In this document: in pieces, positions 48,151 through 59,118 of the stretch
How positions within the stretch are numbered: the first letter of the stretch is position 1
How the letters are laid out: each line of letters starts with the position of its first letter
Source of the DNA: Haloferula luteola
GTDB lineage: Bacteria; Verrucomicrobiota; Verrucomicrobiia; Verrucomicrobiales; Akkermansiaceae
Length of the DNA: 64,000 bases
Assembly (NCBI RefSeq): GCF_014201715.1
Contig: NZ_JACHFD010000008.1
Span: 124,001-188,000 of the forward strand
Direction: 5' to 3'
Translations under genes and position numbers: made by a program
Notes under the pieces: generated by a model
Seen by the model: the letters and a program-made list of their open reading frames with translations, nothing else
Told to the model about the DNA's origin: nothing
The model's database searches: none

Positions 48151-48963
48151 ATGCGGTTCGCGGTGCTGGGGAGTGGGAGTGGTGGCAATGCCACGGTGAT
48201 CGATGCCGGGGGCGTGCGCGTTTTGGTGGATGCGGGGCTTTCTGCGAAGCAGATCACGCTGCGGCTGGCCGCGATGGGCATTCCTCCTGAGTCATTGGAT
48301 GCGGTGCTGTTGACCCACGAGCATGGCGACCACATTCGCGGGTTGCGGGTGCTGATGAAGTCTTTGAAACGGCCGATCTACGCGACGCCGGCGACTTCTC
48401 ATGTGGTGCGGGAGGGGTTGGGTCCCGTGAGCTGGAAGGTTTTTGAGAGTGGGGGGCGGTTTGAGATCGGAGCGCTGGAAATCGAAAGTTTTGCGGTGCC
48501 GCACGATGCCGTCGAACCGGTGGGGTTTTTGTTCCGGGCGGCGGGCCGATCGTTTGGATTGGTGAGTGATTCCGGGCATGTTACGCCGCTCATGCGAGAG
48601 CGTCTGCGGGGGGTGGAGGCCTTGTTCATTGAGGCCAACTACGATGACGAGTTGTTGGAGGCCGACCTCAAGCGTCCATGGAGCACGAAGCAGCGGATTT
48701 CCTCGCGTCATGGGCACTTGTCGAATCGGCAGACCGCCGAGTTGGTGCGTGAGCTGGCAGCGGAAGGATTGCAGCGTGCGGTGTTGGGTCATTTGAGCCG
48801 CGATTGCAATGCTCCGGCGCGGGCGTTGGAGATGGTAGGAGCGTGTGGAATCTCGGTGTGTTGTGCCGGTCAGGACGAGCCGAGTGGCTGGCACGAGGAG
48901 AAGCCACCTTGCTCGATTGATTTCGCGGCCGATGAATTGTTCGGGAGCTCGGTCCAGGGTTGA
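48151..48963 (+). CDS. MBL-fold metallo-hydrolase, YycJ/WalJ-like
   Basis: The ATG at 48151 (MRFAVLGSGSGGNATVIDAGG) gives the family N-terminus at 270 residues. The metal-binding signature THEHGDH (55-61) is intact, with further ligands in FAVPHDAVEP and VSDSGHVTPL, and HLSNRQTAELVREL in the C-terminal part. YycJ/WalJ proteins are putative single-strand exonucleases linked to mismatch repair or cell division. There is no signal peptide. The downstream membrane-protein gene follows within a few bases. Confidence 0.88.
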   Translation: MRFAVLGSGSGGNATVIDAGGVRVLVDAGLSAKQITLRLAAMGIPPESLDAVLLTHEHGDHIRGLRVLMKSLKRPIYATPATSHVVREGLGPVSWKVFESGGRFEIGALEIESFAVPHDAVEPVGFLFRAAGRSFGLVSDSGHVTPLMRERLRGVEALFIEANYDDELLEADLKRPWSTKQRISSRHGHLSNRQTAELVRELAAEGLQRAVLGHLSRDCNAPARALEMVGACGISVCCAGQDEPSGWHEEKPPCSIDFAADELFGSSVQG

Positions 48964-48971
48964 GGCGGTTG

Positions 48972-50366
48972 ATGGGGACGCAAGGAGAGGGTGGGGGCGA
49001 GAAGCGCACCGAGACTTGCCAGCGGAGCGAGGTTGGCGAGATTGGGGCTGTGGCGGATGCACCCGAGGAACGATGGACGCTGGCGGAGTTGATTGACTTC
49101 GAGGCGGCCTTGTCGTCGTGGGATGGTTCGCGACCCGAGCGGGTGGCGGGAATGTCTCGAATGGCGGCGATGAAAGCGTGGCTTGAGGCGGAGGAGCGGG
49201 GAGGGATCGGTCGCCGCTGGTTGGCGGCTTTGGGGGGCATTGGGTTTCTTTTGATGGTCGTGATGGCGTGCTCCGGGGTGGGTGCCGTGTGGGGAGTGTT
49301 GGATCTGGAAACCAAGGGCATGAATGTGGTGTGGATGCTGGGGGTGGTATGGGTGATGCCGTGGGGACTGATGCTGTTGGCGGTGTTGCTATGGTGGATG
49401 CGGGGGAGGATTCCCGGAGGCGGAATGGTGGCATGGGTTGCGGAGCGGGTTTCGTTGCGGTTTTTGGGTGAGGAAACGAGAGAGGCGATCGAGCGGGTCC
49501 GCCGAAGTGGGGAGTTGGCACGGGTGATCGGGTGGCGCATGGCAGCGCTCACCCAGATGGTGGCGGCCTCGTTTCATGCGGGAGCCTTGGTGGGATTGGC
49601 GACGATGGTGTTGGTGAAGCGGGTCGGATTTTTCTGGGAGTCCACGACTCAAGGAGCGATGCGGCATTTCTTGGAAGAGGCGGTGCGGGTGTTGGCGTTG
49701 CCATGGTCCTGGGCGTTACCGCGGATGGTTCCGGATGTGGCAGCCTCGGAAGTCACTCGGAATTGGATGGCGAATGGTGTCGGCTGGTGGCCGTTTTCGT
49801 TGATGGTGCTTTTGGTGTGGGGGGTGGCCCCGCGATGGTTGCTTTCGACCTGGGCGCGGGTGAACGAAACCCGGGCTTTGAGAAATCTGACCTTTCAGGC
49901 GCCGGCGCATCGCAAGTTGTGGCGGGCAATGACGGAGGTGAAGCGAGGCGAAGAGCCGAAGGGACCTGTCGACGGAGCGTTGGTGATTTCATTGGGAGCT
50001 GAGGCCCATCCGGAAGCCTTGCGGCCGTTTCTCCTTCAGAGATTGCGCCTGAATCCAACTGCTTGGGAGACGATGGGGGTGATGGATACAGGGCGGGAGG
50101 AGGCGGCGCGCACGGCCTTGGCGAAAGCGCCCGCGGGGGTGGTTCTGGTCGGAGAAGGATGGTCGTTGGCGCCGCGCCAAGTGGAGCGCGCGTTGGCGGA
50201 GATTCTGAAGGTTTCCGAGGGGAGGAGAGTGGCGGTGGTGGTGGGAAATCCAAGCTCGAGCGGGATGAGCAGCCCCACCGAGGAGGAACGTCGGGAGTGG
50301 GAGCGTTTCATGGATCGACGGGAGGAGAGTGGCAGCACGGAACTTTGGTTTTTTGAGTCGGCATGA
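48972..50366 (+). CDS. DUF2868-like membrane protein, partner of the adjacent GTPase
   Basis: The ATG at 48972 is chosen; a TTG at 48960 overlapping the previous stop is an alternative. The ~464-residue protein starts with a soluble region (WTLAELIDFEAALSSWDG) and has membrane helices near residues 85-112, 120-145, 195-215 and 275-300 (for example FLLMVVMACSGVGAVWGVL, PWGLMLLAVLLWWM). A cytoplasmic C-terminal domain follows with a Rossmann-like pattern (VDGALVISLGAEA; AGVVLVGEGW; VAVVVGNPSS). Gene order and architecture match DUF2868 proteins paired with DUF3482 GTPases. Its role is unknown. Confidence 0.75.
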   Translation: MGTQGEGGGEKRTETCQRSEVGEIGAVADAPEERWTLAELIDFEAALSSWDGSRPERVAGMSRMAAMKAWLEAEERGGIGRRWLAALGGIGFLLMVVMACSGVGAVWGVLDLETKGMNVVWMLGVVWVMPWGLMLLAVLLWWMRGRIPGGGMVAWVAERVSLRFLGEETREAIERVRRSGELARVIGWRMAALTQMVAASFHAGALVGLATMVLVKRVGFFWESTTQGAMRHFLEEAVRVLALPWSWALPRMVPDVAASEVTRNWMANGVGWWPFSLMVLLVWGVAPRWLLSTWARVNETRALRNLTFQAPAHRKLWRAMTEVKRGEEPKGPVDGALVISLGAEAHPEALRPFLLQRLRLNPTAWETMGVMDTGREEAARTALAKAPAGVVLVGEGWSLAPRQVERALAEILKVSEGRRVAVVVGNPSSSGMSSPTEEERREWERFMDRREESGSTELWFFESA

Positions 50367-51808
50367 GTGAGGATTGGTGGCAGCCAGAAATCCCGTCGTT
50401 CGTGGTGGTGGGCCGCGTGAATGCAGGGAAGACTTCGACTTTGGCGACGTTGCTGGAGGTGGATGACGATGCGGTGTTGCGCATTTCCGCGACGCCTGGG
50501 GAGACGACGGGAGTGCTGCCATTGCCGGTGAGGTACGACGGCGAAGAATGGATCCGCTTCCTGGATACTCCGGGTTTTCAGCAACCCGTGGAAGCGATGC
50601 GGGTGATCCAAGGATTCGCGGGTGAGCGGGTTCCTGGCCCGGATGAGCTGCGACAATTCGTGGAGACCTGTGGAGACCGGTTTCCAGACGAGGTGCGCTT
50701 GTTAGAACCGATCATCCGGGGAGCTGGCATTCTGTATGTGGTGGATCCTAGCAAACCTCTGCGGGATTCGTTTCTGGCAGAGATCGAGATTTTGCGGTGG
50801 AGTGGTCGCCCCCGGTTGGCGCTGTTGAATCCGCAGGGAGAGGAGACGGGCTATGAAACGGAATGGCGCGAACGGTTGGGGACTGCCTTCAATTTGACGC
50901 GGACATTTGACGCCCATGCGGCCCGGTTCGATGAGCGAAGGAAGTTGATGCTCGCCCTGCTGCAGATTGAAGAGCGGCATGCGGAGAGAATCGAGCGGGT
51001 GCTGGAGGCGATGGATGCCGAATGGGACCAGCGGCGCGAGGATGCGGCGGAGGCCTTGGTGGACTTGATGGAGAAGGCGCTGACGCTACGGGCGCGAGAT
51101 GGGCTCGATGAGCGGGATCTCGGCGTGCCGGCGCGGCGTGAGCGGAAGCTGGCGGCGTTGGTCGAAGACTATTTTGCCAGGTTGGCGAAATTGGAGGCGG
51201 AGTGCCTGGAAGCTTGGCTGAGGACGTATCGGCACCATTTGTTGCAAGCCGAGGGTGATCCTCGCCATCACCGGGGGTTGGATTTGGAGCAGGAGGAAAC
51301 GTGGCGGAAGTTTGGTCTAAATCGTTGGCAGCTGGCTGCGGCGGGTGCGGGACTTGGGGCTGCGGCGGGTGCTGCGTTTGACTTGGGAGTGGGAGTTCAC
51401 AGTCTTGGGGCAGGGACGGTGATTGGAGCTTTGGGTGGAGGGGCGGCTGCGTTCTTGAAAGGAGGGGCGCTGCCGGAGCTGAAAGTCAGCGGTTTGGGGC
51501 GGATCGGCTTAAAGTCCGGGGAAGGGAGGACCTTGGTGGTTGGGCCGCCGAGCAGCCCGAACTTTCCTTGGGTCCTTTTGGATTCGATGCTGGTACGGTA
51601 TGCCGGGATTCTGCAGCGGGCGCACGGGCGGCGGGATCGGACGACCTTAGAGGACGCGGAGGGTGAGGGCCGGGTGCGCGAGTTTCCGCGAGAGCGTCGG
51701 GCGGTGCTGCAGAAATGGTTCACCAGCTGCCTCAAGGGCCGACCGGACCGTGGGGCAGAGCCTGAGGTTTTCGCGGCGATGGTGGCCTCGCTCGAAGAGC
51801 TGAGTTGA
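50363..51808 (+). CDS. Era/TrmE-like GTPase with DUF3482-like C-terminus
   Basis: The ATG at 50363 overlaps the upstream stop codon. The 481-residue protein has an N-terminal P-loop GTPase domain: G1 GRVNAGKTS (13-21) and G3 DTPGF (near 69). The usual NKxD is replaced by LLNPQGE (near 150). The C-terminal part has a helical region and then glycine-rich hydrophobic hairpins (AAAGAGLGAAAGAAFDLGVGVHSLGAG) that could insert in the membrane. This matches the DUF3482 GTPases encoded beside DUF2868 membrane proteins. It may remodel or sense the membrane; that is inference. Confidence 0.85.
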   Translation: MSEDWWQPEIPSFVVVGRVNAGKTSTLATLLEVDDDAVLRISATPGETTGVLPLPVRYDGEEWIRFLDTPGFQQPVEAMRVIQGFAGERVPGPDELRQFVETCGDRFPDEVRLLEPIIRGAGILYVVDPSKPLRDSFLAEIEILRWSGRPRLALLNPQGEETGYETEWRERLGTAFNLTRTFDAHAARFDERRKLMLALLQIEERHAERIERVLEAMDAEWDQRREDAAEALVDLMEKALTLRARDGLDERDLGVPARRERKLAALVEDYFARLAKLEAECLEAWLRTYRHHLLQAEGDPRHHRGLDLEQEETWRKFGLNRWQLAAAGAGLGAAAGAAFDLGVGVHSLGAGTVIGALGGGAAAFLKGGALPELKVSGLGRIGLKSGEGRTLVVGPPSSPNFPWVLLDSMLVRYAGILQRAHGRRDRTTLEDAEGEGRVREFPRERRAVLQKWFTSCLKGRPDRGAEPEVFAAMVASLEELS

Positions 51809-53109: not shown

Positions 53110-53149
53110 AATAGCGGATCGTGGGTTGGCAACGGGAAAGTTCGCTATT
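53110..53149 (-). other. Inverted repeat between the synthetase and the TIGR04073-like gene
   Basis: AATAGCG (53110-53116) and CGCTATT (53143-53149) form a perfect 7-bp inverted repeat with a 26-base loop at the synthetase stop codon. On the minus strand only TTC follows, so termination is uncertain. It may be a weak terminator or an operator of the gene downstream. Confidence 0.25.
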
Positions 53150-56100
53150 GAGCCCCGGATTTCGGGGGGGTGGAGAGGATTTTTCTGAGCACCGCGGCGA
53201 CTTCTCCCGCGGATTGATGGCGGAGGAACTCTTCGTGGCGTCCGGAAACCTGATGAATTTCAAGGGGCATGGTGGCGGTCCAGCCCAGTTGGGGGTCGCG
53301 GGGGAGCCACCCTTCGTCGAGAGCACGGATGAGCACCAGGCGTCCGTGCGAGGGGAGGCGATGAGGGTGACGATGGAGCGCTTCCCAATGGCGGAGGGCT
53401 CGTTGGCGGGAGGGCTCGTCGAGGAGATCGAGGTCGAGGACGCCTCGTAGGTCGGGGATGTCTTGAGTCCGATGGACGAGGCTATCGACCTTTGAGGAAG
53501 CGGCGCGCTGTTTCATTTTTATGCGGCGACCGACGGTATCGAGGTCCCGCTGGGCGAGACTCCACAAGCGACGGGGGAAGCGTTGGAGAAGCCGGGTCCA
53601 GTGAGTGGGATTTCGCCACCAATCGCGGTGCCATGAGCTTTGAGGTGGGCTGGCTTCAAGGAGCAGGAGGAGTTCGATGGATTCGCCTTGATCCTCAAGT
53701 TGGCAGGCGATTTCTGCTGCGAGGTTGCCGCCAAAACAAAACCCGGCGAGGCGGTAGGGGCCCTTGGGTTGAAGGGAGCGGAGGCTTTCCACGTGGGCCG
53801 CGGCGAGATCGCGTAGCGAGGAGAAAGAGGCGGAGCCTTCGGCCATGCCATAGGAATCGGTGAGGTCGGCCAGTTGCAGGGCGGCCTCGCGGTAGGGGAG
53901 GAGGCCCATGCCCCCATCGACCAGAGTATGAATCCAGAAGAGAGGGGGTCCTCCGCGTCCGCGGGCGAGGGGGATGGGTCGCGGGCGCTCCAGGTCAGGG
54001 GCGGAATGGCTGCGCCATCGGGCCGCCATGCCGGCGGGGGTGGGCTGGTCGAAAAGCCAATCGAGCGGGACGGAGAGTCCGGTGCGTTCGGCGGTGACGG
54101 TGGCGAGACGGGCAGCGAGGAGAGAGTGTCCGCCGAGCGCGAAGAAGTCATCGTCAGGGCCGACCTCTGGGACGCCGAGTGTCTCGGCCCAAAGGCGGGT
54201 GAGTTCCTGGAGGAGGGGATCGGCAGTCCCTCGCCGGTCGGGGGCGGCGTCGGCAGCTGGAATGGGAAGGGTGGCGAGCCGGTTTCGGTCGATTTTGCCA
54301 CTGGGAGTGAGAGGGAAGTTCTCCAGAGGAAGAAGCCGGGAAGGCACCATGTAGTCGGGAAGGCGCCGGCGGAGGTGATCGTGAAGGTCGGCAATGGGGG
54401 AGGAAGACCGAAACCAAGCGATCAGGCGGTCGTCGGTCCAGACGGTTGCGGCTTCTTGGACATTGGGATGATCGAGAAGGGCGGCATCGATTTCCCCCAG
54501 CTCCACGCGGAAGCCACGGATTTTGATTTGGGCATCGGTGCGGCCGAGGCATTCGAGGCTGCCGTTGTGAGTCCATCGGGCAAGGTCGCCGGTGCGGTAA
54601 AAACGCTGGTGGTCCAGGGTGATGAATCGTTCGGCCGTGAGTTCCGGGCGCTGCCAATAGCCGATGGCCAGTCCGGCGCCGCCGATGAGCAACTCGCCAG
54701 GAACTCCGGGGGGGCAAACTTGGTGGTCGGTGGAAACGATCCGTAGGGTGGTATTGGCGATGGGGGTGCCGATGCGAATCGGTGCCGGATGGGAGATGGG
54801 GGGCACCGCCCAGAGGGTCGACCAGATGGTGGTTTCGGTCGGGCCGTAGAGATTCCACATTGCTGCGACTCGCGGGCGTAGGCGGTCGGCAAGGGGGCGG
54901 TCCAGGGCCTCTCCTCCGCAGAGCAGACGAAGTTTCGGGGATCCGGACCAGCCGTCATCGAGGAGCATTCGCCAAGTGGCAGGCGTGGCCTGCATGAGAT
55001 CGGGATCGGCGGCTTGGAAACGCTGGCGCAGGGCGCTGGGGTTGCGGGCTGTGGTGCTGTCGACGAGGTCGATGGTGCCCCCGGCGACGAGGGGCAGAAA
55101 AAGTTCGAGGCCGGAGATATCGAAGGAGACGGTGGTGACGGCGAGGAGCGTTTCCCCAGAGGTCATGCCAGGAGTTTCCGCCATGGAGAGGAGGAAGTTG
55201 GCGAGAGCACGATGAGGGATGACGACGCCTTTGGGCCGGCCGGTGGATCCGGAGGTGTAGAGGAGATAGGCGGGATCTTCAGGGGAAAGCTTTGGGAAAG
55301 ACTCGGCAGGGTCTGGAGGAGTTTCGAAGTGGGCTGGAAGCAGAGGGAAAGCTTGGGTGCCTAGGGGAAGATAGGATTCAAGCCCGGGGGAGACGAGGGT
55401 GAGAAGGGGGGCCTGATCTTCGAGGATGAGGCGGAGTCGTTCTGGCGGATTGGAGGGATCGAGGGGGACGTAGGCGGCTCCGCACTTCCATACTGCAAGG
55501 AGCACGCAGGGGAGGTCCGAAGTGCGTTCTATCAGGAGGGCGACGCGGTCTCCTGCCTGCACGCCATGCCGGTGCAGGTGGGTCGCAAGGGAAGCTGAGC
55601 GGGCTCCGATTTGACGGTAGAGTCGATGTGCCCCCGGCGTGGTGATGGCAATGGCATCAGGCTGCCGAGCGATCGTGGCACCGATGAGTTCCAGCGCGTG
55701 AGTGTGGGTGAAATGCGGACGTTGGGGCCCATGGGAGAGGATTTCGAGTTGCTGGCGATCGGCGGAGGTGAGCGCTGCGAATGGCTGGGCCGGAGCGTTG
55801 GGAGATTCGCATGCGGCTTCGAGTAACACGAGATAGCGATCCAACAGGGCCTGCGCGGTTTGGCGGCGGAAGAGATCTTGTCGAAACTCAAGAAACAGCT
55901 GGGTGCAGTCGGGCCACTGCAGGCTCACCATGGCGAGGTCGAACTGGACGGCACCGCGGTGGAGAGGGCGGGGGCTGGCTGTGAGTTCGGGAGTCCAGGA
56001 AAGCGGGAGTGGATATTCCTGATGGTCGAAAAGAATCTGTGCGATCGGAGCGCGGTCCCGACTGCGTTCGGGCTGGACCGCTTCGATGATCTTTTCGAAA

Positions 56101-58961
56101 GGGGCCTCCTGATGGGCCTGCATGGCGAAGGTGGCTTCCCGGACCCGAAGCAGCAGGTCGCAGAAGCGATCGTTGTCGGCCAAGGTGATGCGCAGCGGCA
56201 GGGTGTTGACGAGGGTGCCGATGAGTTCTCCCGCCACGGCGTGGTGGCGATTGGCGACGGGCACGGCCGTCACCAGATCGTTGCCGGCTCCATGGGCGCG
56301 CAGGGTGAGCATCCATGCCGCGAGCCGGACCATGAAGGGAGTCGCACCGTGGGCGCGGGCCACGGCAGCGACGGCGGATTCGAGGGTTGCAGGAAGGGGG
56401 GCGGAAACGACATCGCCCTGCCAAGATGGCTTGGTTGGGCGGGGGAAGTCGGTGGCAAGTTCGAGCTTCCCGGAATGACCGGATAGGGAGCGTTTCCAAT
56501 AGTCAATCTGGTGGTCGATGGTGCCGCTATCGAGGCGTTGGCGTTGCCAAGCCGCGTAGTCGATGAAGTCGGGCCCAAGGGGTTTGGCAGGAGGATCGAT
56601 CCCCCTACGGTAGGCTTCGTAGAAGTGGGCGAGTTGCTGGGCGATCACGCGCATCGACCAGCCATCGACCACGATGTGATGGCCGCAAAAGGCGAGGACA
56701 TGGTGGTCGTGCCGGCAAGCAATGATGCCGGCGCGTGCAGGAGGTTCGCGGTCCAAGTGGAAGGGTTGGCGGGCCCAGCTGGGTAGGAGCACGTCAGGGT
56801 CTCCGTCGAGGATTTCCAACGGAGAGGGAGGACCGAGATGCATGCCCGAGTCCGTGTGCCGGGTTCGAAGAATGGGGTGATCGGAGAGCAGCCGTTGCCA
56901 AGATTTCTCCATCGCTTCCAGGTCGATGGGCCCATGGAGGTCGATGGCCCCAAAAACGTGGTAGGCAGGGCTTTCTGGCTCCAGCCGATGGAGGAAGGCC
57001 ATGCGCTCTTGGGAGTGGCTGATGTTTCCGCTGGCGAGTCCTGAACCGATCTCGATGGGGAGCTCCGTGAGGTGGGGATGAAGGGGGAGTTGTTCGGCGA
57101 GGGCGATGAGACTTGGGGCTCGGAATAGGGCGGCGAGATCGAACGAGACTCCGGTTTGCCGATGGAGTAGGGCGGCGAATCGCGTTGCTTCGATGGAGCT
57201 GACCGCCAGGCTCGAGAGGTCGTCGTGGGGTCGGGCATCGTCTCGATGGGTGGCCTGCCGGAGGGCCTGCAGCACTTGTTCAAGCCGGTCTCGCTGATCG
57301 TCAGGAATGGTAGGGAGTGGATCGGTGGCACTGTCATGCAGCAGTGGCAGGGACCCTTCGAGAAAGGCATCGCGGGTCGCTTGGCGTCGGATTTTTCCAC
57401 TGGTGGTGCGGGGGAGAAGTCCTGGGCGGACGATGAGCACGCGATCGATGGAGACCCCGGTGTGATGGGTGACTTGTCCGGCGAGGGCATGGGGGTCAAG
57501 TTCACGACCTTCGACGGCAAGGATGACCCTTTCGCCCTCACCGGAATCCTGCCCGAAAGCGGCGGCAGCGGTGATGCGTGGATTGAGGGTGGCCGCAGCG
57601 TCTTCAAGGTCCTCCGGGGCAATGTTGCGGCCTTCCCGGATGATGAGATCCTTGAGGCGGCCGACGACGAAAAGCTCGCCCTCTTCGAGGAACCCGAGGT
57701 CGCCGGTGCGCAGCCATCCGTCGACCCAGGTGTGTGAGGTCAGTTCGGGCTGCTGCCAGTAGCCGCCCGCCAGCGAGGGGGAAGAGACTTCGATTTCTCC
57801 GGTGGTTCCTTCGTTCAATGGGAGGTGGGTCGTGGGGTCGACAACCCGGACCTGGGTCCCGGGAAGGGGCGCCCCACAGGAGATCTGTTGCGGATCACGG
57901 CTGGAACATTTCCACGAGCCGGGCGACACGACTGGTCGGGAAGTGACGACCAGGGTGGCCTCGGCCAGCCCGTAGCCCGGGCAGAAGGCTCGGGAATCGA
58001 AGCCGCAGGGTTCGAATCGTCGGGCAAAGCGTTGGAGGGTTTCGCGGCGGATGCGTTCGGCGCCTGTGGGCGCAAATTTCCAGGAGGAAAGATCGAGTTG
58101 AGCGAGTTCGTCATCGGTGACCGCTCGCACGCACCAATCGAAGGCAAAATTGGGCCCTCCGCTCATTTCAGCCCGGTATCGGTGGATGGCTCGAAGCCAG
58201 CGAGCGGGACGCTGGACAAAGGCGTCCGGCGAAAAGGTGATCAATGGGATGCCGGCGTGGAGGGCATAGAGCAATTTGAGCACGAGGCCCATGTCGTGGT
58301 AGGGCGGAAGCCAGCTGAGGACCGAGCGAAAGCGAACGTCCCCGGCGTGGCGGTGAAAGGCGGCAAGCTGTTCCTGAAGGGCCTCAGCGGTGAGGATTAC
58401 TCCCTTGGGTGCGGAGGTGGAGCCGGAGGTGTATTGCAGCAAGCAGGGGCCAGTGGAAGAGACCGGGTCGAAGTGAGAATCGACGACTGAGGAGGGGGAA
58501 AGGAATTCGAGTCCGTCGACCGTGCGGAGGGGGATCTCGCCGAGGGCGAGGGTGGCTTGGCAATCGTGCCGGACGGCCTCCAATCGTGCCCGGTGGCGGC
58601 TGCCTTGAGGTGGATAGGCGGGGACGGCAATGGCACCGGCCATCCAACTGCCCAGCAATGAGCTGAGGAAATCGGGTCCAGGAGGGGCGGTGATGAGGAC
58701 CGGCTGACCGGAGAGGCGTCGTTCGGTGAGTGCCGCTGCCATGCTCATGGCACGGCGCGCGAGGTCCTTCCAGGAGACGAGAGATTCTGCACTTTCGCCA
58801 TCGGTCAAATGGCAGGTAGCGGGGACGTCCGGAACGGTTGCGGCGCGCCGGATCAGGAGTCGCGACCAGGTTTCTCCGCAGGTTGCGGGAGGGACATCAG
58901 GGAGGGTGGAAGGGTCAAACATTGAAGCACTTTCGTCCTGGGTGAAGACGACGTCGGGCAT
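53145..58961 (-). CDS. Single-module lipopeptide synthetase FAAL-ACP-C-A(Gly)-PCP-TE
   Basis: Domains in the 1938 residues: fatty acyl-AMP ligase (~25-545; YTSGSTSAPKG, SWLPPYHDMGL, GPNFAFDWC), acyl carrier (~555-625; Ser589 in LAVSSIEA), condensation (~640-1060; HHIVVDG 761-767), adenylation (~1075-1565; YTSGSTGRPKG, NLYGPTETTIW), peptidyl carrier (~1580-1650; GGHSLL, Ser1613) and thioesterase (~1670-1935). The specificity positions read D-I-L-Q-L-G-L-I-W with the invariant Lys, a recognised glycine code. The thioesterase elbow is GFCFGG, giving Cys1742 as nucleophile. Prediction: a fatty acid is activated, condensed with glycine and released as an N-acylglycine or derivative. No accessory biosynthetic genes adjoin it. 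An ATG at 58922 is an alternative start. Confidence 0.93.
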   Translation of the reverse strand: MPDVVFTQDESASMFDPSTLPDVPPATCGETWSRLLIRRAATVPDVPATCHLTDGESAESLVSWKDLARRAMSMAAALTERRLSGQPVLITAPPGPDFLSSLLGSWMAGAIAVPAYPPQGSRHRARLEAVRHDCQATLALGEIPLRTVDGLEFLSPSSVVDSHFDPVSSTGPCLLQYTSGSTSAPKGVILTAEALQEQLAAFHRHAGDVRFRSVLSWLPPYHDMGLVLKLLYALHAGIPLITFSPDAFVQRPARWLRAIHRYRAEMSGGPNFAFDWCVRAVTDDELAQLDLSSWKFAPTGAERIRRETLQRFARRFEPCGFDSRAFCPGYGLAEATLVVTSRPVVSPGSWKCSSRDPQQISCGAPLPGTQVRVVDPTTHLPLNEGTTGEIEVSSPSLAGGYWQQPELTSHTWVDGWLRTGDLGFLEEGELFVVGRLKDLIIREGRNIAPEDLEDAAATLNPRITAAAAFGQDSGEGERVILAVEGRELDPHALAGQVTHHTGVSIDRVLIVRPGLLPRTTSGKIRRQATRDAFLEGSLPLLHDSATDPLPTIPDDQRDRLEQVLQALRQATHRDDARPHDDLSSLAVSSIEATRFAALLHRQTGVSFDLAALFRAPSLIALAEQLPLHPHLTELPIEIGSGLASGNISHSQERMAFLHRLEPESPAYHVFGAIDLHGPIDLEAMEKSWQRLLSDHPILRTRHTDSGMHLGPPSPLEILDGDPDVLLPSWARQPFHLDREPPARAGIIACRHDHHVLAFCGHHIVVDGWSMRVIAQQLAHFYEAYRRGIDPPAKPLGPDFIDYAAWQRQRLDSGTIDHQIDYWKRSLSGHSGKLELATDFPRPTKPSWQGDVVSAPLPATLESAVAAVARAHGATPFMVRLAAWMLTLRAHGAGNDLVTAVPVANRHHAVAGELIGTLVNTLPLRITLADNDRFCDLLLRVREATFAMQAHQEAPFEKIIEAVQPERSRDRAPIAQILFDHQEYPLPLSWTPELTASPRPLHRGAVQFDLAMVSLQWPDCTQLFLEFRQDLFRRQTAQALLDRYLVLLEAACESPNAPAQPFAALTSADRQQLEILSHGPQRPHFTHTHALELIGATIARQPDAIAITTPGAHRLYRQIGARSASLATHLHRHGVQAGDRVALLIERTSDLPCVLLAVWKCGAAYVPLDPSNPPERLRLILEDQAPLLTLVSPGLESYLPLGTQAFPLLPAHFETPPDPAESFPKLSPEDPAYLLYTSGSTGRPKGVVIPHRALANFLLSMAETPGMTSGETLLAVTTVSFDISGLELFLPLVAGGTIDLVDSTTARNPSALRQRFQAADPDLMQATPATWRMLLDDGWSGSPKLRLLCGGEALDRPLADRLRPRVAAMWNLYGPTETTIWSTLWAVPPISHPAPIRIGTPIANTTLRIVSTDHQVCPPGVPGELLIGGAGLAIGYWQRPELTAERFITLDHQRFYRTGDLARWTHNGSLECLGRTDAQIKIRGFRVELGEIDAALLDHPNVQEAATVWTDDRLIAWFRSSSPIADLHDHLRRRLPDYMVPSRLLPLENFPLTPSGKIDRNRLATLPIPAADAAPDRRGTADPLLQELTRLWAETLGVPEVGPDDDFFALGGHSLLAARLATVTAERTGLSVPLDWLFDQPTPAGMAARWRSHSAPDLERPRPIPLARGRGGPPLFWIHTLVDGGMGLLPYREAALQLADLTDSYGMAEGSASFSSLRDLAAAHVESLRSLQPKGPYRLAGFCFGGNLAAEIACQLEDQGESIELLLLLEASPPQSSWHRDWWRNPTHWTRLLQRFPRRLWSLAQRDLDTVGRRIKMKQRAASSKVDSLVHRTQDIPDLRGVLDLDLLDEPSRQRALRHWEALHRHPHRLPSHGRLVLIRALDEGWLPRDPQLGWTATMPLEIHQVSGRHEEFLRHQSAGEVAAVLRKILSTPPKSGAQ

Positions 58962-59080: not shown

Positions 59081-59118
59081 AAAAATGCCGCCGCCTCTCG
59101 AAGGAAGCGGCGGCGGCG
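59081..59118 (-). terminator. Terminator after serA
   Basis: On the minus strand an 8-bp GC stem (GCCGCCGC, complement of 59107-59114, with GCGGCGGC, complement of 59087-59094) is followed by ATTTTT (59086-59081). It lies between serA and the synthetase gene, separating the two transcripts. Confidence 0.85.

Follow-up and report, generated by a model that had tools for sequence, protein, structure and literature searches.

The 64,000-nucleotide stretch of the Haloferula luteola genome analysed here (the window) encodes on its minus strand a 1938-residue protein that is probably a self-contained lipoamino-acid synthetase, joining a fatty acid to glycine and releasing the N-acylglycine, most simply by hydrolysis. 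An initial reading of the letters alone (the sequence-only reading) had placed the open reading frame (ORF) at 53145-58961 and proposed that one chain holds, in this order, fatty acyl-AMP ligase (FAAL), acyl carrier protein (ACP), condensation (C), adenylation (A), peptidyl carrier (PCP) and thioesterase (TE) domains. The limits and the length proved exact, the strand had not been given, and the domain order was borne out by Pfam and NCBIfam. Pfam matched AMP-binding twice (4.6e-132), AMP-binding_C (6.5e-9), PP-binding twice (7.2e-26), Condensation at residues 647-1072 (1.6e-76) and Thioesterase from residue 1708 (2.5e-19). As conservation in relatives adds to these E-values, the predicted architecture is considered real and not a product of chance. 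A termination module of the C-A-PCP-TE type is expected to have HHxxxDG, a carrier Ser and, in the TE, a nucleophile and a His, and all of these are present. In counts, "window gene" refers to this ORF and "own genome" to the genome containing it. Domain order, intact catalytic motifs, a glycine-type pocket, conservation and genes of the phosphopantetheinyl transferase (PPTase) family are all evident at the level of sequence.

In the scheme that we propose, the FAAL domain would adenylate a fatty acid and load it onto the fused ACP, the A domain would load glycine onto the PCP, and the C domain would join both to give N-acylglycyl-S-PCP. The TE would then take the chain on Cys1742 for release, most simply by hydrolysis to N-acylglycine, which is the most likely product. 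Priming of both carrier domains has to come in trans, and the genome has two PPTase-family genes away from the synthetase, one of which probably encodes the enzyme for it. We infer all of these reactions, and likewise which fatty acid is taken, how the product is released and what role it has (a surface-active lipid or a signal).

The case for glycine comes from the A domain. The specificity code DILQLGLIWK, already given by the sequence-only reading, was recovered at residues 1281, 1282, 1285, 1324, 1347, 1349, 1371, 1379, 1380 and 1556, and it is kept in 12/12 complete A domains read, with conservative changes only (L/F, L/M and I/V). The whole domain matched LgrA chains in the PDB most strongly (526 bits, the sum of two domains), then AB3403 (376 bits) and 5u89 (371 bits). 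With a 121-residue A-core fragment, two solved glycine A domains were closest and had a clear lead, AB3403 (4ZXH, 111 bits) and DhbF (5U89, 92 bits). Within this fragment, all nine aligned pocket residues equal those of DhbF and seven of the nine equal those of AB3403; the tenth, a Lys, lies outside the fragment and is present as K1556. The spacing is also shared, with 43 residues for D1281-Q1324 and 99 for D1281-W1380, as for D656-Q699 and D656-W755 of DhbF. In a passage of PMC11253843, 5U89 is DhbF with Gly, 4ZXH/4ZXI (there written AB3404) is likewise with Gly, and a hydrogen bond joins Q699 and W755 in the DhbF glycine pocket; a passage of PMC5376624, citing Drake et al. 2016, describes the AB3403-type A domain as having glycine bound and as preferring it. 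The code had earlier been called a published glycine code. The match to the DhbF and AB3403 pockets upholds the assignment, but the exact string DILQLGLIWK was not found by literature search, so that "published" rests on these two proteins. Overall, the A domain is predicted to have a glycine-type pocket.

The first domain is FAAL-like by both NCBIfam and PDB matches, as had been proposed. Of the outcomes that the sequence-only reading had named as refuting it, two could thus be checked, a specificity other than glycine and a first domain that is no FAAL, and its proposal withstood both. For the first ligase unit (residues 37-537), two FAAL models lead among the NCBIfam matches listed (the best 25 of 106 families considered, with bit scores for the whole protein): PRK09192 with 361 bits and PRK05850 with 359 bits. 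Both are below their own cut-offs (600 and 775), and a model named for a coenzyme A (CoA) ligase comes next with 322. In the PDB, the best match is 7r7g (328 bits, named a polyketide synthase), followed by 3kxw and then by FAAL-named chains, FadD23 and 3pbk among them. The stretch after YGLAEAT, which corresponds to the FAAL insertion, is 19 residues long in the window protein and nine relatives and 14 in three (14-19 in 13/13 members), versus 32-36 residues in four (L025-L028) of 18 distant loci and 36 in 7r7g (by eye). The FAAL-specific insertion thus appears shortened, not clearly absent. Its length in all 13 members is what speaks for a relaxed ligase, using acyl-CoA as well as acyl-ACP, in place of a strict FAAL. 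We consider this improbable, given that FAAL models lead, that solved chains with a FAAL name rank among its best matches and that the domain is fused to an ACP. In addition, a part of PMC8460268 reports that the insertion matters less for CoA rejection than a blocked canonical CoA pocket does, which would allow the domain to be a true FAAL despite its short insertion.

The residues expected of the two following domains are also conserved. In the C domain, His762, Asp766 and Gly767 are kept in 13/13 rows holding these positions, and in the PDB it is matched best by Txo2, Txo1 and 5u89, in each case by their C domains. In the ACP, Ser589 is Ser in 13/13 rows holding the position. DSL is the usual motif at a carrier attachment site; the motif here is VSSIE (57195-57197), and the residue preceding the Ser is S in 10/12 rows holding it, R in a homologue from another genus (G029) and G in G005.

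The TE is of an unusual Cys type. The Ser-type GxSxG motif is absent from this domain, which has GFCFGG instead, and Cys1742, Glu1769, His1909 and Asp1882 are kept in 11/11 TEs read (a set that leaves out the TE of G005). Glu1769 aligns with the position-I Asp of EntF, and Asp1882, 27 residues N-terminal of His1909, comes close to where SulM has its position-II acid (Asp2926, 30 residues before His2956, according to a part of PMC11298585). The same part of that source names ObiF, SulM and the uncharacterised AB3403 as the structurally characterised non-ribosomal peptide synthetase (NRPS) TEs with a Cys nucleophile. For the PCP-TE part of the window protein, AB3403 is the best solved match (73 bits; motif GWCFGG). 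The TE alone matches 23 solved chains, with NocB first (47 bits) and with neither ObiF nor SulM among them. In ObiF and SulM the Cys nucleophile goes with release as a beta-lactone or beta-lactam, so that hydrolysis cannot be taken for granted. The TE could instead release the acylglycine by transfer or cyclisation, that is, onto an amine or alcohol acceptor, as a lactone via a hydroxylated fatty acid, or as an azlactone, and the Cys1742 found in all 11 TEs, together with the invariant Asp1882 near the SulM position-II acid and the invariant Glu1769 at position I (positions as in the part of PMC11298585 cited above), would suit such chemistry. However, AB3403, which that source calls uncharacterised, also has a Cys and carries Asp at position I; NocB, rather than ObiF or SulM, leads the solved matches; glycine has no side-chain nucleophile for a strained ring; and in place of the Gln-Cys-Asn motif described for SulM the TE has Phe-Cys-Phe. 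We therefore hold transfer or cyclisation to be unlikely, although it is the main alternative to hydrolysis. A wider proposal, that of a genus-level one-gene family in which a Cys TE (Cys1742, His1909, Glu1769 and Asp1882) transfers or cyclises the acylglycine to give uncharacterised glycine lipids and the FAAL has a shortened insertion, is considered at least as doubtful.

The stand-alone character of the synthetase, also claimed by the sequence-only reading, is consistent with the rest of the genome. Besides the window gene, just one Condensation domain was found in the own genome, in a separate polyketide synthase (PKS)-NRPS with its own TE, which leaves no sign of a partner assembly line. 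Ten neighbouring genes were compared with the loci of 11 relatives, and none was matched there (tblastn, E <= 1e-8; nine fetched stretches of about 20 kb and two of 11 and 8 kb), and all-against-all clustering agrees. Two PPTase-family genes are present, both away from the synthetase. These genes, the Cys nucleophile of the TE and the short FAAL insertion were overlooked in the original domain account, whose order and code stand. No match to MbtH was found in the own genome, so the A domain is probably MbtH-independent. The separate PKS-NRPS, at L054:8361-19139 on contig C7 of the same genome and outside the window, is a 3592-residue PKS-aminotransferase-C-A-PCP-TE protein with a divergent PPTase gene (one of the two) beside it; in several relatives open frames of about 3500-3700 residues also match the window protein. 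A Bacteroidetes-type glycine-lipid pathway was considered and rejected: Acetyltransf_5 (PF13444), the family in which we take GlsB-type N-acyltransferases to fall, has no match in the own genome, while among 14 control genomes it matches E. coli and Bacteroides ihuae.

The gene is shared within the genus. A whole-protein search of 57 genomes (own included) found orthologues, either near-full-length, split or fragmentary, in 10 other members of the genus, with BLAST identities of 45-56% for the main piece. By domain, identity is 51-65% for TE, 52-62% for A, 48-54% for FAAL, 43-54% for C, 37-72% for PCP and 30-48% for ACP. A TE probe (E <= 1e-20) matched 12 of 260 family genomes, namely 11 of the 18 in the genus (own included) and G133. 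Across the phylum, at least 7 of 387 genomes match by TE alignment (E <= 1e-25), an undercount as no more than six candidates per genome were scored: five are of the genus (own included) and two are distant. These last two have frames of 1486 and 1560 residues, both with GYCFGG, and no FAAL-type motif was found in the stretches around them. A wider scan of genome contigs, with patterns built from the single window sequence so that relatives may be missed, gave 18 loci with best segments of 24-38% identity, none a close relative. Compact homologues on plasmids were also sought and rejected: 2880 plasmid records matched and four places were examined, of which three (H1, H10 and H3) belong to coding sequences of at least about 3,200 residues and are probably multi-module, and H2 is without annotation. 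In 6/11 relatives' loci (G008, G007, G009, G010, G003 and G005) a divergent pair of clusters adjoins the gene, and in G016 one of the pair is about 5 kb off. The pair is PSCyt2/PSD1 plus DUF1501 (Pfam, G008 copies only). It was rejected as a conserved partner and judged to be local synteny with no shown link, being absent beside the window gene.

One homologue outside the genus bears on whether the synthetase acts alone. In G029, a TE-less synthetase 46% identical to the window protein has a PPTase gene on one side and a C-A-PCP-TE NRPS on the other (L052:6829-17589), with one small ORF before the NRPS; the locus may illustrate the relation between the stand-alone form and a larger cluster. 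With such an arrangement in mind, the window protein could act as loading module in a larger lipopeptide line that has its other parts elsewhere, its TE then serving for editing. We consider this very improbable, since the sole other C-domain protein of the own genome is a PKS-aminotransferase-NRPS with its own TE, the window gene has a TE of its own, and its ten neighbours are unmatched in the relatives' stretches.

Several points weigh against a self-contained synthetase that hydrolyses its product. First, we infer its product and activity from the letters of the DNA. Second, the short insertion departs from other FAALs, and among NRPS TEs Cys is the less common nucleophile, described for ObiF and SulM together with the release of a beta-lactone or beta-lactam. 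Third, in G029 the acylglycine may be handed on to the next NRPS. Fourth, 7/18 genomes of the genus had no TE match at E <= 1e-20 (G002, G004, G006, G012, G013, G014 and G017). Fifth, the domain trees agree only in part: G008 groups with the window protein and G015 in the C-A tree (97/96), and with G011, G007 and others in the FAAL tree (97/96), while several forks are open, above all in the TE tree (4 of 8). Because of this conflict, domain exchange within the family is possible. Finally, the genome is a draft (95.5% complete, 84 contigs) in which partners or MbtH could be missing.

Table 1. Coordinates of the predicted synthetase, its domains and the adjoining hairpin in the window.
Feature	Position	Strand	Basis
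FAAL-ACP-C-A-PCP-TE synthetase, 1938 aa plus stop	53145..58961	-	ORF, Pfam, NCBIfam, relatives
Fatty acyl-AMP ligase domain (aa 32-540), FAAL-specific insertion stretch of only 19 residues	57342..58868	-	NCBIfam, PDB matches, counted length
ACP domain (aa 560-632), Ser589 as attachment site	57066..57284	-	One of two Pfam PP-binding stretches; Ser conserved
Condensation domain (aa 647-1072), HHIVVDG, second His 762	55746..57023	-	Pfam, PDB
Adenylation domain (aa 1097-1562), code DILQLGLIWK	54276..55673	-	Pfam, PDB, alignment
Peptidyl carrier domain (aa 1585-1648), GGHS, Ser1613	54018..54209	-	Pfam, alignment
Thioesterase domain (aa 1665-1930), Cys1742 (GFCFGG), His1909, acid Glu1769 and/or Asp1882	53172..53969	-	Pfam, PDB alignments, conservation
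Terminator-like hairpin (11 pairs followed by ATTTTT) separating serA from the synthetase gene	59087..59114	-	Terminator-site scan

Around the gene (Table 1), the flanks are as the sequence-only reading had described them: a SerA-type phosphoglycerate dehydrogenase on one side and an exosortase-associated TIGR04073 protein (score 73.3 bits, cut-off 50) on the other, with no transporter or PPTase adjacent. None of the 10 neighbouring proteins scanned with Pfam matched either (three of the 10 are without any family); an aldehyde dehydrogenase gene lies beyond serA. The ORF has two in-frame candidate starts, Met1 and a Met at residue 14, neither with a clear Shine-Dalgarno sequence (by eye). The hairpin between serA and the synthetase gene may mean that the latter is transcribed separately, and a second one follows the TIGR04073 gene; terminator-like sites in the region number 7 versus 6.2 in shuffles, i.e., not above shuffles, and no promoter-like sites were found there. 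A serA-NRPS operon supplying glycine via serine was set aside, considering this intervening hairpin and that serA is unmatched at the loci of 11 relatives. Further off, genes for DUF2868 and a DUF3482 GTPase adjoin at 48960-51808 as a plus-strand pair with overlapping ends.

By sequence, then, this appears to be a real, conserved and compact lipoamino-acid synthetase, whose parts are known and whose one-chain, stand-alone fusion differs from the Acinetobacter baumannii set described below. If true, one gene would suffice to turn free fatty acid and glycine into a lipoamino acid, a minimal route that should lend itself to reconstitution and engineering, and it would offer a simple handle both on the function of Cys-type TEs like the one in AB3403 and on whether a FAAL needs the full insertion to avoid CoA.

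Among the matches listed in a literature search, no title named a one-protein FAAL-to-TE acylglycine synthetase, and the known systems that resemble it each share a part. In puwainaphycin-type FAAL-initiated NRPS/PKS lines (parts of PMC4219810 and of the FAAL review PMC11837247), a FAAL activates the starter fatty acid, as proposed here, but these feed longer assembly lines, whereas here one module ends in a TE. Module 1 of DhbF (5U89, bacillibactin synthetase) has the same aligned glycine pocket (9/9 residues) and the same D-Q and D-W spacing; it belongs to a different pathway, was crystallised with an MbtH-like protein (none was found in the own genome), and the 5U89 construct has no FAAL or TE. 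The TEs of ObiF1 and SulM appear, from sequence, to share with ours a Cys nucleophile and an acid near position II, but they are described as closing a beta-lactone or beta-lactam ring with side-chain nucleophiles, and glycine has none. Of the known systems, the nearest is the A. baumannii A1S_0112-A1S_0119 pathway with the NRPS A1S_0115/AB3403 (PDB 4ZXH/4ZXI). According to parts of PMC5376624 and PMC11298585, this pathway has, like the synthetase, a FAAL-like ligase, an ACP and a glycine-binding C-A-PCP-TE protein with a Cys TE. There, ligase, ACP and C-A-PCP-TE (A1S_0112/0114/0115) are separate proteins, while here they are fused in one chain. At TE position I, AB3403 has an Asp and the window protein a Glu, to which the latter adds the invariant Asp near position II. 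The A. baumannii operon, in the same parts of these sources, also has an acyl-CoA dehydrogenase and an RND transporter, neither found among the 10 neighbouring proteins scanned (three without a family), and Ac-505, the product tied to it, is more complex than an acylglycine. Considering these likenesses and differences, the synthetase would be expected to work like the A1S_0112/0114/0115 set fused into one protein, without being a member of that operon type.

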